A stretch of DNA of 64,000 bases from Microbacterium testaceum (GTDB taxonomy: Bacteria > Actinomycetota > Actinomycetes > Actinomycetales > Microbacteriaceae). The translations under genes were made by a program, and so were the position numbers. Below the pieces are notes generated by a model. That model ran no database searches. It was not told the DNA's origin and saw only the letters and a list, made by a program, of their open reading frames with translations. Below, piece after piece: positions 30,364 to 63,880 of the stretch. The DNA is taken from NCBI RefSeq assembly GCF_020781835.1, contig NZ_JAJGNJ010000003.1, positions 1-64,000 of the forward strand, written 5' to 3'. The first letter of the stretch is position 1; the number at the start of each line of letters is the position of its first letter.

Positions 30364-30446
30364 CCCGCGCTCCGGAGAGTACTGCCGTTTGCGGCCGGTG
30401 GGCCTGCCAGGCGTGCGGATCCGACGCCATCACTCCGGAGCGCGGC
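30364..30446. repeat. Family B palindrome (83 bp), copy 1
   Basis: 13-bp arms CCCGCGCTCCGGA (30364-30376) and TCCGGAGCGCGGC (30434-30446) around 57 bp of unrelated sequence. It ends 101 bp before the endonuclease-like gene at 30548. Confidence 0.85.
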
Positions 30447-30547: not shown

Positions 30548-31447
30548 GTGCACGGCCGCCCCCTCCCGACCGATTTCTCCCGATCACTGTCGACGAGCGC
30601 GCTCAGAGAGTCCGGGCTGACCAAACGCGACATCACCGCCGCCGTCGCGCGGGGCGATCTCCTTCGTCTGCGGCTGGGACGATACGCCCCGCGGCATACC
30701 CCCGAAGTCATGATCGACGCGGCTCGATGGGGCGGCCGCCTCGACTGCGTCTCGTTGCTGTCGCATCTGGGGGTCTTCGTTCACACCCGGGCGGGCACGC
30801 ACATCCAGATCGATCCCCACGCGACCCGCCTACCGCCGCATCCGGTGTCGGTTCGCTGCCACTGGCGCCCGACGGCAGCACCCGCGGAGTCGCTCGTGGT
30901 CGAGATCACAGAGGCGCTCGCACAGGCCGTCATCTGTCAACCGGCACGACACGCCATCGCGACGCTCGACAGCGCGTGGCACATCGGACTCGTCGACGAG
31001 CGCGCTATCGGCGACGTCTTCCGGCGGCTCCCGCCCCGGTTCCAGGTGCTTCGCGGGCTGCTGGATCGGCGCAGCGAGGCGGGGGTCGAGACCCTTGTGC
31101 GGCTGATCCTGCGCACGCTGGGTCACCGCCCGGAGCTGCAGGTGGTCATCGACGGCGTCGGTCGTGTCGACCTCGTCGTCGACGGGTGGCTCATCGTCGA
31201 GTGCGACAGCCGCCAGTTCCATTCCGGTTGGGAGGCTCAGATGCGGGACCGACGTCGCGATGCCGCCGCTCTCGCGCGGGGGTATGTCACCGTCCGCCTG
31301 CTCGCCACGGACGTGCTCTCCCGACCCGACGCCGTACGCGCGCAGCTCGAGGAGATTCTCGGTCACGGACGAGCCGTGCCGCACTCCGGAGAAACTCGCG
31401 CCTTCCGGGCGAGCAGCGCACGGCGCAGCAGGTTTATGCGGCCATAA
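30548..31447 (+). CDS. AbiEi-like/DUF559 endonuclease-like protein (2 of 3)
   Basis: A protein of 299 residues. The N-terminal domain (ALRESGLTKRDITAAVARGDLLRLRLGRYA) is AbiEi-like. The C-terminal DUF559/VSR-like domain has ETLVRLILRTLG, VGRVDLVVDGWLIVECDSR with an Asp and an E-x-D set, and RDRRRDAAALARGYVTVRLLATDVL. By eye it is about half identical to the 48.7-kb protein. GTG 30548 is chosen because CAAGCT lies 6 nt upstream and CCATCCACA lies 50 nt upstream, as for the first member; GTG 30518 is possible. The TAA stop lies inside a family B palindrome. Nuclease activity is an inference. Confidence 0.8.
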   Translation: MHGRPLPTDFSRSLSTSALRESGLTKRDITAAVARGDLLRLRLGRYAPRHTPEVMIDAARWGGRLDCVSLLSHLGVFVHTRAGTHIQIDPHATRLPPHPVSVRCHWRPTAAPAESLVVEITEALAQAVICQPARHAIATLDSAWHIGLVDERAIGDVFRRLPPRFQVLRGLLDRRSEAGVETLVRLILRTLGHRPELQVVIDGVGRVDLVVDGWLIVECDSRQFHSGWEAQMRDRRRDAAALARGYVTVRLLATDVLSRPDAVRAQLEEILGHGRAVPHSGETRAFRASSARRSRFMRP

Positions 31448-31460
31448 TCCGGAGCGCGGC
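31378..31460. repeat. Family B palindrome, copy 2
   Basis: Arms GCCGCACTCCGGA (31378-31390) and TCCGGAGCGCGGC (31448-31460), again 83 bp overall. It covers the last 70 bases of the coding region and supplies its TAA stop. Confidence 0.88.
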
Positions 31461-31638: not shown

Positions 31639-31721
31639 GCCGCGCTCCGGAGAAACCCAGCCCCGCGACCCGGTTGGCCGCACGCGAGACCGGGTCGGGC
31701 GAGTGCGCTCCGGAGAGCGGG
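31639..31721. repeat. Family B palindrome, copy 3
   Basis: Left arm GCCGCGCTCCGGA (31639-31651); right arm TCCGGAGAGCGGG (31709-31721), 11 of 13 bases matching at exactly the expected position for an 83-bp unit. Confidence 0.8.
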
Positions 31722-48515: not shown

Positions 48516-48586
48516 GCACTACTCCTGCAGAACCGGCCGAGCCGCCATTGATATGCGTGGCCGCGACGGCTCCGCCGGAGTTGCGC
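48516..48586. repeat. Family C palindrome (71 bp), copy 1
   Basis: Arms GCACTACTCCTGC (48516-48528) and GCCGGAGTTGCGC (48574-48586). Confidence 0.85.
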
Positions 48587-48697
48587 GGTGCGGGACAGGC
48601 ACGGCGCGGCCGCATTGGGAGCCGGAAGCGCCGGAGGTGCCCGGCTCACCCGCCGCTGCGCGCAGCCTCGCCCGCACCCCGGCCTGCACCCCGGTCA

Positions 48698-48768
48698 GCA
48701 CAACTCCGGCATTGGTCACTCGAGGGCACTGCGGCGGGGTGAAACAGCCGCCTCTGCCGGAGTTGTGC
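48698..48768. repeat. Family C palindrome, copy 2
   Basis: Perfect arms GCACAACTCCGGC (48698-48710) and GCCGGAGTTGTGC (48756-48768). It covers the stop codon and last 53 bases of the endonuclease-like gene. Confidence 0.92.
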
Positions 48769-49638
48769 AGCCGGGCGCCTCAGCGAGGAGCACCGAGGTG
48801 GACACCTCGCCGGATGCCTCGCGACGGCGACGCCGCCGCCCGCCCCGCAGCACACCCGCGAGTGCACGCTGCACAGCGTCGGGGCGGTAGAGAATGTCCT
48901 CCGCGACCAGGCGCAGCGTGGCGTACCCGAGTTCAGCGGCGACGCGGTCCCGGCGTCGATCGCGCAGTTGCTCCTCCCACGACGAGTGATGCGCACGGCT
49001 GTCGCACTCGACGATCAGCCACCCGTCGACCAGGAAATCGACGCGTCCCACGCCGGCGATACGCACCTGCGTCTCGAAGCGAGCGCCGAGACTCCGGAGC
49101 ATGAGCCGGACGAACGTTTCCGAACCCGCCTCCGCCGATCGGTCGGCCAGCGCCCGGAGCCGTCGGAAGCGTCGCGGAAGCCGCGCGAACACGGCGTCCA
49201 CCTCCTCCCGAGTGATCAGGTGTTTGTTCCAGGCGCTGTCCACCGAGGCGAGTCCGGCGCGGGGCCCCTGACATCGGAAGGCCTCGGCCAAGGCCTCTAC
49301 GAGGTCCGCATGCAGATGGCCCGGTCGCGCGCCGGTCGATCGCCAGTGCGCAACGACATCGGGCGGACGGTCGGGGAGCCTGCTCATCTCGCGATCGAAC
49401 TGCACATGAAGCTGCGGCGCATGCAGAACGAAGACGCCCAGGAGCGAGAGCAGAGACACGCAATCCACGCGCCCGCCGAGACGACCCGCTTCACAGGTGG
49501 TGGGGTCGAGGGAGCCTTCCGCGTATCTCCCCCGGCGGAGGCGAACCAGCGCCCCCTCACGCACGGCCCGATCGATCTGTGGACGCGCCATCCCGCGATA
49601 CGGAGTTCCCGATAGGTATGGAAGCGAGGCGTCGTCAT
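48716..49638 (-). CDS. AbiEi-like/DUF559 endonuclease-like protein (3 of 3), apparent frameshift near the start
   Basis: The main frame (stop 48716) encodes QIDRAVREGALVRLRRGRYA, then a body about half identical to the 30.5-kb protein, with ETFVRLMLRSLG, VGRVDFLVDGWLIVECDSR and RDRRRDRVAAELGYATLRL: the VSR-like E...D...E-x-D set. In this frame the first usable ATG (near 49587) would cut off the first helices. The missing part lies in the +1 frame: ATG 49638, with CAGAGT 7 nt upstream, encodes TYRELRIAGWRVHR, which aligns with the start of the 21.1-kb protein. The frames would join around 49571-49590. A real frameshift (pseudogene), a sequencing error or a recoding site are all possible. Confidence 0.7.
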
Positions 49639-49737
49639 CCTCTTCACTCTGCTCAGATCCCGGGCGGCGGGCGCCGTCCGCGACTCGTTCTGGGGACGAG
49701 AGAGCGCCGTTACCGTGATGGGCAGGAGCCGTCGCGA

Positions 49738-49807
49738 ACACAACTCCTGCGGACTGCCCGGGGTCTCTGGCATCCATGCACCTCGGGCCGGGATGCCGGA
49801 GTTATGC
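49738..49807. repeat. Family C palindrome, copy 3
   Basis: Arms ACACAACTCCTGC (49738-49750) and GCCGGAGTTATGC (49795-49807). It lies 100 bp upstream of the shifted start 49638 and 20 bp before the acetyltransferase gene. Confidence 0.88.
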
Positions 49808-49815
49808 CGCATCGG

Positions 49816-49821
49816 TACCGT
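49816..49821 (+). promoter_or_regulatory. -10 box of the acetyltransferase gene (leaderless)
   Basis: TACCGT, six bases before ATG 49828. Confidence 0.5.
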
Positions 49822-49827
49822 GGGCGG

Positions 49828-50391
49828 ATGGAGCATGAGCACCTGCACACCGCACGCCTCGAACTCTCGCCCCCGACGACGGCCGACGTCGCCGCCATCC
49901 ATGCGGCGTGCCAGGATGCCGATCTGCAGCGCTACACCATGGTGCCGTCGCCGTACCTCCTCGAGGACGCGGAACGCTTCGTCGAACTGACCGGGCGATG
50001 GTGGGCGGGTGGCACGGAGCCGACGTGGGCGATCCGCCGCGGCGGACGCCTCGTCGGCATGATCGGGCTGGCGAGGCTCGACACCGGGGCGCCCGAGATC
50101 GGGTACTGGATCGCCCGCGACGCTCGTCGACAGAATGTGGCAGGCGAAGCCGCCGCGGCCGTCGTCGACTGGGCGTTCGCGGACGAACGTCTCGCCGTCG
50201 AGCGGATCGAGTGGCGCGCGGTCGTCGGGAACATCGGCTCCGCCCGAACCGCCCGACGGCTCGGCTTCCGTTACGAGGGGCTGCTGCGACAGGCGCACGT
50301 GAACAGTCTCGGCCGCGCGGACGTGTGGATCGGCGGTCTGCTCCGACACGACGACCGGGTCCCGCAGGAGTGGCCTTTCGCCCTCGGGTGA
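49828..50391 (+). CDS. GNAT-family N-acetyltransferase (RimJ/RimL type)
   Basis: A protein of 187 residues. It starts HLHTARLELSPPTTADVAAI, the RimJ/RimL-like opening, then the acetyl-CoA pyrophosphate region IARDARRQNVAGEAAAAVVDWAF and the C-terminal VGNIGSARTARRLGFRYEGLLRQ. Substrate is unknown: ribosomal protein N-terminus, amino acid or drug are all possible. It sits inside the family C repeat zone, with palindromes 20 bp upstream and 5 bp downstream. Confidence 0.88.
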   Translation: MEHEHLHTARLELSPPTTADVAAIHAACQDADLQRYTMVPSPYLLEDAERFVELTGRWWAGGTEPTWAIRRGGRLVGMIGLARLDTGAPEIGYWIARDARRQNVAGEAAAAVVDWAFADERLAVERIEWRAVVGNIGSARTARRLGFRYEGLLRQAHVNSLGRADVWIGGLLRHDDRVPQEWPFALG

Positions 50392-50396
50392 AACCG

Positions 50397-50467
50397 CCCC
50401 CACTCCTGCAGGACCGGCTCCCGCTTGCGGCCACCACCACCGCGTCCGTGTTCCGCAGGAGTTGTGT
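50397..50467. repeat. Family C palindrome, copy 4
   Basis: Degenerate left arm with ACTCCTGC at 50402-50409 and right arm GCAGGAGTTGTGT (50455-50467); 71 bp overall. Confidence 0.75.
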
Positions 50468-50502
50468 CGCGGGACCGCGGACCAAACGACCGGACCCGCC
50501 GA

Positions 50503-50573
50503 GCACAACGCTGGCAGATTCGCCGCCGCGCTGGCATCCGCTCCGCACTGACACGCCCCCGCAGGAGTTCTGC
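50503..50573. repeat. Family C palindrome, copy 5
   Basis: Arms GCACAACGCTGGC (50503-50515) and GCAGGAGTTCTGC (50561-50573); 71 bp overall. Confidence 0.82.
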
Positions 50574-51574: not shown

Positions 51575-51587
51575 TCGACCAAGCAAC

Positions 51588-51733
51588 ACGTGCTCCGGGG
51601 TCGGTGAGAATCCGAACCGGCGGTGACAGTCCGCGAACCCCTCCGCTCAGCGGTGGGGCCGATCCGGTGGAATTCCGGAACCGACGGTGATGAGGCGAGA
51701 GATCTCCTCTAGTCCGGATAGGAGGCAGCACGG
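51588..51733 (+). promoter_or_regulatory. FMN riboswitch (RFN element)
   Basis: The conserved RFN blocks occur in order: GGTGAGAATCCGAACCGGCGG near 51602 (shown in the motif order GGTG-A-CCG-ACCGGCGGT), CAGTCCGCGAACC, GATCCGGTGGAATTCCGGAA, CCGACGGTGATGAG, and TAGTCCGGATAGGAGG. The closing stem is GTGCTCC against GGCAGCAC. It binds FMN and should repress ribD-ribE-ribBA-ribH, here probably by masking translation since no clear terminator follows. Confidence 0.93.
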
Positions 51734-51791
51734 TCGGCATGCCGCGCCGCCCTGCCCTCTCCTGCCCCGTTCACGACGGGAAGGACAGGAA

Positions 51792-63520: not shown

Positions 63521-63592
63521 GCACAACTCCTGCACGATGCGGAGGATCCTGGCATCCCGACCACCCGCGAGTACGCGACGCAGGAGTTGTGC
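63521..63592. repeat. Family C palindrome, copy 6
   Basis: Perfect arms GCACAACTCCTGC (63521-63533) and GCAGGAGTTGTGC (63580-63592). Confidence 0.93.
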
Positions 63593-63659
63593 GGAGGGGA
63601 CCCCGGCCCCGCGGTGTGACTCAGTTACCCCGAACCGGCGCCGCGTCCGCGGCGTGCAG

Positions 63660-63730
63660 GCACAACTCCGGCGCCTCAGCCAGCCCACGCCGGTCGGGGC
63701 CGCCGCTCGACCCGATCGCAGGAGTTGTGC
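63660..63730. repeat. Family C palindrome, copy 7
   Basis: Arms GCACAACTCCGGC (63660-63672) and GCAGGAGTTGTGC (63718-63730), one mismatch. Confidence 0.92.
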
Positions 63731-63810
63731 ACGACGACAGACGGCGGATGCCACGGCCCCGACGATCCGAGGAGCCCGGAGCCCGGAGCCCGCAGCATGC
63801 CGGGCCGGCC

Positions 63811-63880
63811 GCACAACTCCTGCAGAACGCCGAGCTCCCCCGCCGGCGGCTCGGCAGGGGCCGAAACGCAGGAGTTGTGC
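63811..63880. repeat. Family C palindrome, copy 8
   Basis: Perfect arms GCACAACTCCTGC (63811-63823) and GCAGGAGTTGTGC (63868-63880). The sequence following copies 7 and 8 is also repeated (ACGGCGGATGCCACG). Confidence 0.93.

Follow-up and report, generated by a model that had tools for sequence, protein, structure and literature searches.

Spaced units and nuclease genes in the window

The window is a stretch of 64,000 nucleotides from Microbacterium testaceum. Its first nuclease gene codes for a protein with an AbiEi-type winged helix and a Vsr/EDxHD nuclease domain (Pfam MTES_1575/DUF559) and is located at positions 48716..49638 on the minus strand. The first ~17 codons lie in a different frame, as a result of either a real frameshift or a sequencing error. 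At this locus the neighbours are trpS, a GNAT acetyltransferase gene (49828..50391, plus strand), which is a syntenic neighbour outside the system, and an Fpg/Nei-like gene, while an adjoining DUF1814 (AbiEii) toxin gene is absent.

Five units, designated C-type, were identified around these genes, each consisting of paired inverted half-sites of ~20 bp, with a unit length of 70-71 bp. Unit 1 (48516..48586, 71 bp) is located between trpS and the nuclease gene and has 2 arm mismatches compared to GCACAACTCCKGC. Unit 2 (48698..48768, 71 bp) overlaps the 3' end of the nuclease reading frame and has no arm mismatches, and unit 3 (49738..49807, 70 bp), with 2 mismatches, lies between the nuclease gene and the GNAT gene. 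Unit 4 (50397..50467, 71 bp) has a degenerate left arm with 3 mismatches and 4 mismatches in total, and unit 5 (50503..50573, 71 bp) has 2 in the left arm and 3 in total. In the preliminary description all five were given as 70-71 bp long, with 13-bp arms and interiors unrelated in sequence. The lengths were reproduced (71, 71, 70, 71 and 71 bp) and the interiors are unrelated between loci, whereas the arms had been described slightly generously, considering the left arms of units 4 and 5. The gap between the GNAT gene and fpg has ~200 bp more DNA than in eight relatives, and two units lie in this additional stretch.

Three additional C-type units with perfect arms are present at 63521..63592 (72 bp), 63660..63730 (71 bp) and 63811..63880 (70 bp). 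In the whole window, 20 matches to the C-type arm with at most 2 mismatches were counted, compared to 4.7 expected, and none of 100 shuffles reached 20. The arm profile has a sharp outer edge, with conservation fading inward. A second gene of the nuclease family, with 52% identity to the first, is located at 30602..31375 on the plus strand and has cognate units of its own, all 83 bp in length: one at 30364..30446 with the arms CCCGCGCTCCGGAG and GCCGCGCTCCGGAG, one at 31378..31460 with somewhat diverged arms, and one at 31639..31721.

For the protein, a predicted model was obtained with a pLDDT of 90.5, for which the first Foldseek match was AbiEi (6y8q, E 6e-5). Residues 8-168 align with AbiEi 6y8q with a Z score of 6.8 (160 residues), and residues 171-271 with the catalytic domain of I-Bth0305I (3r3p, Z 14.1) and with Vsr (1cw0, Z 12.7). 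The MTES_1575 REase domain (PF18741) is common to the members of alignment A1 of the nuclease family, being matched at E<=0.001 by 24 of 24, and AbiEi_4 was matched in 10 of the 24. When scored individually against MTES_1575, the gene of the window and that of locus L101 fall below Pfam's own cut-off. Of 61 proteins, 59 have the catalytic-type residues E176, D203, E213, D215 and H220 (locus L123, which had been read in a wrong frame, was excluded). The MTES_1575 domain owes its name to a Vsr-type REase situated close to the end of a very large HEPN/helicase protein, and the passages on it contain no mention of repeats (PMC3710099). No gene of the family was found in phage and plasmid records searched at 1e-10 and 1e-15.

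The units as partners of the nuclease gene

At 79 of 129 usable distinct loci of the nuclease family, the gene has matching arm pairs on either side, compared to none of the control genes (0/133 and 0/138, together 0/271). The 129 loci are those left from 151 after removal of 19 near-duplicates and of 3 loci with less than 400 bp of flank; by subset, before pruning, 19 of 30 (1 short), 52 of 80 (2 short), 11 of 20, 9 of 20 and 1 of 1 were flanked. These counts depend on the gene ends used, as in another run 13 of 20 loci were flanked, and G035, G011 and G051, which were missed there, were positive with different ends. The 50 of 129 loci that are unflanked are so under a strict criterion, which also misses the first gene of the window and that of G027 despite plain units.

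The arms differ from gene to gene, and they do so even where different species are compared at one locus (trpS-gene-GNAT or mtlD-gene); these two loci hold 57 of 80 genes. Among 59 genomes, strict C-type units are present in 11, and a gene flanked by C-type arms was identified in 6 of these 11 (G000, G007, G011, G027, G053 and G055). In the genomes with strict C-type units, the arms of the best gene of G051 are similar but not identical (CTCCTCA), neither a close gene nor a GNAT neighbour was found in G009, and in G016 the locus lies at contig ends. A C-type gene was not seen in G003 (1 of 2 matches examined) or in G058 (3 of 5 examined). The spaced units belong to the neighbouring AbiEi-type/Vsr-EDxHD nuclease gene, which is their cognate partner. 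What had been noted at first as an endonuclease-like gene is this partner, and genes of the family come with their own arms.

In a sample of 62 non-redundant gene/arm pairs, which includes L123 (wrong frame) and L102 (no N-terminal part), the top six covariation scores were those of residue 22 with arm positions -1 and 0, and of the pairs 21/1, 86/12, 25/1 and 38/4. Residues 21, 22 and 25 are located in a predicted helix comprising residues 21-30, residue 38 lies between the two wing strands, and residue 86 lies outside. Five of the six strongest associations of protein and arm fall in the recognition helix or the wing, and 6 of the top 20 columns are among residues 8-43 (p 0.024), in both cases with phylogeny not removed.

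Spacing, conservation and placement of the units

The spacing was checked genome-wide by pattern searches of the whole source genome together with retrieved stretches. In the source genome, 32 of 33 exact C-type arms have a partner (at most 4 mismatches) at 56-60 bp, compared to 69 of 4000 random positions. When any gap from 30 to 60 was allowed, a strict arm pair gave 10 matches in the whole source genome, all with a gap of 44-46, and the reversed control pattern gave no matches. In 303,836 bp of source sequence, 41 convergent arm pairs were found at a distance of 13-110, 35 of them at 57-60; of the remaining pairs, 3 are at 47, 1 is at 45, and 2 are at 80 and 82. A separate spacing class of 45-47 bp was rejected as a register artefact, since each pair in it has one arm in common with a unit of 58 or 59 bp. 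Divergent and direct arm pairs had no spacing peak in the same sequence. The sharp peak that had been predicted for a whole-genome scan is thus present at 57-60 bp, and neither a broad distribution nor a predominance of single arms, which had been named as refuting outcomes, was found. The observation was confirmed as real and extends well beyond the window.

In other species, which have other arms, the units of a genome likewise agree in length to 1-2 bp, even though the gap was allowed to vary by ~30 bp (all 16 strict units in G035, all 39 in G054 and all 8 in G031). With these patterns, 2 matches were obtained in G034 and none in G010, G049 and G013, which have different arms of their own. 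Between loci, four length classes were identified, which lie about one helical turn apart: 71.1, 81.8, 93.7 and 103.5 bp (n = 11, 39, 5 and 1) in a set of 56 that omits loci with a register score below 5, and 71.3 (14), 81.8 (40), 93.9 (7) and 103.5 bp (1) for all 62 loci. Four loci (L196, L204, L214 and L216) were shifted by hand by 4 nt, with the CAG core 4 positions inward; unshifted, they would measure 79-80 and 102-103 bp. The 94-bp class accompanies an insertion of ~10 residues in the protein: the stretch between winged helix and nuclease has 139-142 residues in 7 of 7 proteins of this class, which are related to each other, and exceeds 136 in 1 of 53 others (L123 and L102 were dropped).

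The complementarity of the arms, which could fold, and the preference of the units for convergent intergenic regions would also be consistent with DNA or RNA hairpins, such as terminators, REP-like stem-loops or an RNA family. However, at the K position, 90 units have T/T in 25, T/G in 26, G/T in 23 and G/G in 15 cases in the left and right arm, with one other (Fisher p 0.29), so that the arms are mismatched there (T/C or G/A) in 49 of 90 units. The inner arm positions pair no better than those of re-paired units (z 0.02), the spacing shifts by helical turns, and a search of the region in Rfam at E up to 1 gave no match. With no covariation of the arms and no Rfam match, the hairpin or RNA reading was rejected as having next to no chance of being correct. 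The two arms vary independently, and the conserved feature is therefore a pair of double-stranded half-sites at a fixed distance rather than a stem-loop. An earlier proposal that selection acts on the distance between half-sites and not on a stem-loop agrees with the independent arms, the sharp spacing in other species and the steps of a helical turn in length.

At orthologous sites the arms are more conserved than the interior. In 144 syntenic pairs the differences amount to 18.3% in the arms, 36.3% in the interior and 27.8% in the flanks, with the arms below the interior in 124. For the 110 pairs with flanks differing by less than 40%, the values are 10.9%, 29.7% and 20.6%, with the arms below the interior in 100 of 110; in 6 pairs the arms differ by more than 30% though the flanks differ by less than 40%. 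Pairs were counted in both directions, starting from 96 distinct query units, and the second orthologue was unconditioned. An estimate of 6.8% versus 28.5% was discarded as biased, because both orthologues had been chosen by their arms. Arm conservation exceeds what would be expected for a neutral fossil insertion. From G000 to G053, 25 orthologous sites have a C-type unit and none is without, where units of a cluster can substitute for each other. Five cases of "no element" from G055 to G053 were left out of the losses, since the matches behind them are short and repeated. A true replacement was identified once: locus L091 of G000 is without the C-type unit of G027 and G053 and contains another 71-bp inverted pair.

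Dispersed sets of units also exist for other arm types, and in a small sample none of 22 dispersed units from species with other arms coincides with a C-type unit. No recent unlinked copy of a unit was found. Of the similar pairs scored as unlinked, L045/L079 represents a single place, and the others (76-79% over 75-117 bp) were taken as chance or arm-only matches. A target-site duplication, searched as direct repeats of 2-10 bp at 101 units, was near chance, with a top excess of 9 versus 5.7 (sd 2.3) at 3 bp. Since neither a recent unlinked copy nor a target-site duplication was found, dispersal is deduced from the differences in position only.

These results bear on a reading of the units as ordinary MITEs, with short terminal inverted repeats that would belong to a known transposase family, and of the nuclease gene as a bystander. 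The sharp outer edge and the inward fading of the arm resemble terminal repeats, and the extra DNA in the GNAT-fpg gap would be consistent with insertion. However, interiors unrelated between loci, quantised lengths, the lack of a significant target-site duplication and an arm type that goes with the nuclease gene make this very improbable.

It is less improbable, though still unlikely, that the sites are an immobile set serving the host, which would, for example, sequester or position the nuclease, mark self DNA, or guide repair or recombination, with new sets arising by selection. Orthologous units common to species, the constraint on the arms, the presence of most genes at two syntenic loci and the lack of hits in phage and plasmid records would all fit such a set, but the coincidence of 0 of 22 units with C-type units is hard to build site by site.

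With a simple gene caller, 15 of 49 intergenic regions with units are convergent, compared to 27 of 222 other regions (enriched, p 0.004), and 9 of 49 are divergent, compared to 80 of 222 (depleted, p 0.018). This is the reverse of a promoter network and speaks against the units as operators of an AbiEi-type regulator, by which autoregulation and a dispersed regulon would be explained and the nuclease domain would be incidental. AbiEi and Rv2827c are described to repress their own expression via inverted 23-bp repeats in the promoter (PMC7319586), and the units adjoin the gene and in some cases lie upstream of other genes. However, units are present on either side of the gene, an overlap with its 3' end is seen in the window as well as in G027, and the nuclease-type residues are kept in nearly all proteins. 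The operator reading was therefore considered doubtful, more so than a host-serving set.

A proposed dimeric nuclease and its genomic sites

The reading preferred here, with a probability of roughly 0.6, is a dimeric nuclease together with its genomic sites. In its construction this would resemble REPIN/RAYT, although the machinery is unrelated. Each unit would be the double-stranded binding site of the cognate nuclease, with one monomer bound to each inverted half-site of ~20 bp via the AbiEi-type winged helix, of which the recognition helix would contact the outer bases and the wing would read further in. The two C-terminal Vsr/EDxHD domains would face each other across the sequence-neutral interior, so that both half-sites would need to be on the same face of the helix and separated by whole turns. 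The gene would bear its own sites on both sides, with more sites between genes around the chromosome. Because species with other arms have their sites at other places, the nuclease would disperse sites, in the way proposed for RAYTs and REPINs, and the sites would then persist. Direct binding and the dimer geometry are very probable on the evidence given above. Catalysis at the site is a guess with even odds, and a dispersal of the units driven by the nuclease is a guess at slightly less than even odds.

Like the units, REPINs are intergenic pairs of inverted short sequences, which occur in tandem clusters and with a resident gene that lies next to its own repeat type (PMC3116915). In contrast, the cognate protein is a winged-helix and Vsr/EDxHD nuclease and not a tyrosine (Y1 HUH) transposase, and the pairing of the arms is not kept by selection, with an interior that is free in sequence and fixed in helical phase. 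AbiEi monomers are reported to bind two 23-bp inverted repeats that are 3 bp apart, and the pairs of Rv2827c are 13 bp apart (PMC7319586). The fold of residues 8-168 and the paired inverted repeats with a gap differing by 10 bp are shared with this group, whereas the C-terminal half is a nuclease, the sites are dispersed and on both sides of the gene, and the gap would be ~25, 36, 48 or 57 bp if a half-site of 23 bp is assumed. I-Bth0305I is described as dimeric on its target, which measures nearly 60 bp (PMC3943268). The fold of the catalytic domain and the conserved acidic and histidine residues are shared with I-Bth0305I and Vsr. Unlike in I-Bth0305I, the gene is not in an intron but chromosomal and at mostly fixed loci, many sites exist instead of one target, and the conserved bases are at the outside of the site and not at its centre.

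A literature search found no paper describing these spaced units, and the results point to a protein-and-site system not described before, in which a nuclease-like gene family of Microbacterium is combined with its own matched paired sites. More tentatively, and at somewhat less than even odds, this may be an undescribed intragenomic replicator, in which a winged-helix/EDxHD nuclease spreads and maintains short elements that consist only of two half-sites with whole helical turns between them, with the gene being fixed in place and changes in specificity bringing new genome-wide sets of sites. In its logic, such a replicator would be a bacterial counterpart of PRDM9 and its hotspots.

To our knowledge, only a few forms of nuclease-plus-site partnerships spread across a chromosome are known. 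In the present family, dozens of natural gene/arm pairs are available, in which the sequence alone gives protein, specificity and geometry, so that a recognition code of the AbiEi-type winged helix and a rule relating protein length to DNA spacing would be directly testable. For the widespread and uncharacterised DUF559/MTES_1575 family, the system suggests a function to look for, and it may add a second and independent example to the question of how populations of REPIN-like sequences come to persist in bacteria.

Half-sites and their spacing

The five C-type units, each a pair of inverted arms with an interior between them, were confirmed at the window positions of the preliminary description (starting at 48516, 48698, 49738, 50397 and 50503), with measured lengths of 71, 71, 70, 71 and 71 bp, and three further C-type units were identified at 63521-63880. 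The constant distance proposed for them was checked in the whole genome (3.61 Mb, 67 contigs, the window being C33:1-64000 there). With the gap left free between 30 and 60, the strict pair, a pattern match to both arms, was found ten times, with a gap of 44-46 every time, and its reversed control had zero matches in this genome. In the stretches fetched from it, 35 of 41 convergent arm pairs 13-110 bp apart were located at 57-60 bp. Four of the remaining six were register artefacts of 57-60 bp units and two lay at 80 and 82 bp, while divergent and direct pairs in these stretches gave no spacing peak. The arms are not mostly single, since a partner was identified for 32 of 33 exact arms. In other Microbacterium genomes, convergent pairs at 56-60 bp accounted for 30/30 in G053, 17/20 in G027 and 3/6 in G007, and the three pairs of G051 are at 68-69 bp.

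For 90 units from five genomes, the half-site was shown to comprise about 20 bp, GCACAACTCC(T/G)GC(A/G)GAA(C/T)CGG-like, with a sharply conserved outer edge and a fading inner part; little conservation was present outside the units and in their middle. At the T/G position, the left and right arms carried T/T in 25 units, T/G in 26, G/T in 23, G/G in 15 and another combination in one (Fisher p 0.29), so that, statistically, left and right arms are independent of each other. Because the arms vary independently, the palindrome represents two recognition sites and not a stem, as had been suggested from the constant spacing with variable interiors. Within the half-site consensus, GCACAAC...GCAGAAC forms an 11-bp quasi-repeat, spaced by about one helix turn, and may be the trace of two contact blocks of one monomer.

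The nuclease gene flanked by the units

The gene between units 2 and 3 (48716-49638, minus strand) matches Pfam MTES_1575 and DUF559. Its start, at 49575-49638, reads in a different frame from the remainder and intact relatives exist; from the sequence, this copy may be a pseudogene or contain an assembly error there. In the predicted model (pLDDT 90.5), the N-terminal part is AbiEi-like (Foldseek E 6e-5; Z 6.8 over 160 residues), and the C-terminal part is similar both to I-Bth0305I, an EDxHD homing endonuclease (Z 14.1), and to Vsr (Z 12.7). Monomers of AbiEi are reported to bind a pair of inverted 23-bp repeats with 3 bp between them, a distance that is 13 bp for the pairs of Rv2827c (PMC7319586); I-Bth0305I is described as a dimer on a target nearly 60 bp long (PMC3943268).

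Among 62 non-redundant protein-arm pairs, the strongest associations link residue 22 with arm positions -1 and 0, residue 21 with 1, 86 with 12, 25 with 1 and 38 with 4; they still include the effect of phylogeny. In the model, residues 21-30 form a helix at the place of a recognition helix, and residue 38 lies between the wing strands. Residues 8-43 hold 6 of the top 20 columns (p 0.024), a modest enrichment.

The nuclease gene with units on its flanks was also identified in G011, G007 and G053, and in G011 the only two strict units sit on either side of it. Of the 59 genomes of the genus, 56 contain relatives (E up to 0.001), frequently several each. A search for inverted arm pairs recurring on both gene sides, with no sequence assumed, identified such pairs at 19/30, 52/80, 11/20 and 9/20 loci and at a second gene of the window, the genes of the 9/20 set sharing only about 35% identity with the query. 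When duplicates and loci with short flanks are excluded, flanking pairs are present at 79 of 129 loci; the same search on control genes from the same stretches gave 0/133 and 0/138. Locus L356, which comes from a different family within the order, is also flanked by this criterion, and for L360 (G000:C44:294800-295564), the third such nuclease gene in the own genome, no flanking pairs were found under it. When up to 12 candidates per genome were scored in 198 genomes drawn from the phylum, at least three besides the own genome matched at 1e-15, two in the same order and one beyond. No match to the gene was found in phage and plasmid records at 1e-10 and 1e-15.

Arm types and helical phase

In a common register, for which four loci were shifted by hand, the units of 56 non-redundant loci fall into length classes of 71.1 (11 loci), 81.8 (39), 93.7 (5) and 103.5 bp (1), in steps of 10-12 bp. 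The distance from winged helix to nuclease is 139-142 residues in 7/7 proteins of the 94-bp class and exceeds 136 in 1 of 53 others. Although these seven are related, so that the p value treats them as more independent than they are, the length of the protein and the spacing of the DNA sites do change together. Most probably, the units serve as targets, each of two half-sites whole helix turns apart, for a dimeric nuclease of the winged-helix/EDxHD type.

Different arms were identified for different genes: GCACAACTCCKGC in the own genome, CCCGAACTCCTGC in G035, GCACAACGTCGGC in G017, G025 and G012, CGYAACTCCTCAA in G031, and CCGTATTCAGTCT at loci L196, L203 and L214. The second window gene (30602-31375, plus strand), whose neighbours we take to be mtlD-like, has three 83-bp units (30364-30446, 31378-31460 and 31639-31721) with arms like CCCGCGCTCCGGAG, and another strict unit of its type is located on contig C22. 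G035, G054 and G031 contain 16, 39 and 8 strict units with their own arm type, of which 5, 2 and 3 adjoin the gene, and each set has one length within 1-2 bp. Two syntenic places hold 57 of 80 genes, 26 by trpS and/or GNAT and 31 by the neighbours of the second window gene. The arms there differ among species, so the gene is mostly fixed in position and its specificity changes. Strict C-type units occur in 11 genomes, and in six of these a gene is flanked by C-type arms, which counts against a simple one-to-one presence of the two. In 22 genomes without such units, the best gene locus had C-type flanks in none (other arms in 12, none found in 9, one unusable).

Placement, persistence and possible dispersal

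Predicted genes border 82 of the 90 units on both sides; five units lie at locus edges and three inside predicted ORFs, among them the window's unit 2, which is perfect and overlaps the nuclease ORF at its end. The 49 unit-bearing intergenic regions are 15 convergent, 9 divergent and 25 codirectional, compared to 27, 80 and 115 of 222 others. This bias is the reverse of that of a promoter network. In the single-contig genomes G035 and G054 (C1 in each), dispersed units appear denser near both contig ends than mid-contig. An FMN riboswitch (51587-51734, plus strand; Rfam RF00050, 74.7 bits) lies in the window upstream of an ORF, presumably ribD.

C-type units at syntenic places are shared within the clade of the own genome (25 with and 0 without from G000, the own genome, to G053, a count in which units of one cluster may replace each other). 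When the second copy was left unconditioned, the differences in 144 syntenic pairs amounted to 18.3% in arms, 36.3% in interiors and 27.8% in flanks; in the 110 pairs with flanks below 40%, they were 10.9%, 29.7% and 20.6%, with arms below interior in 100. Clustered units are partly tandem duplicates. Neither a recent unit copy at a different locus nor a significant duplication of target sites at units was found. The GNAT-fpg gap of the window contains two units and is about 200 bp longer than in eight relatives. At L280 (G000:C33:217924-217988) and L091, a lone 71-bp inverted pair with CCCACTTCTKGC arms occupies the position of a C-type unit in related species; a second strict copy was not found in the own genome. 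In G054, G031, G034 and G035, 9 of 31 unit loci adjoin the gene. None of the 22 others coincides with a C-type unit: seven have a matching stretch, with the nearest C-type unit 828-7010 bp away, and for the other 15 the sequence compared, about 8% of the own genome plus portions of four other genomes, contained no match.

The overall architecture of units and gene is similar to that of REPIN/RAYT systems; however, neither the selected pairing of copies of REPINs nor the tyrosine transposase of RAYTs was found here. Among the readings of what this nuclease and its sites do in the genus, a selfish system of the dispersal type is tentatively ranked first, ahead of a site set serving the host and, last, a regulator network.
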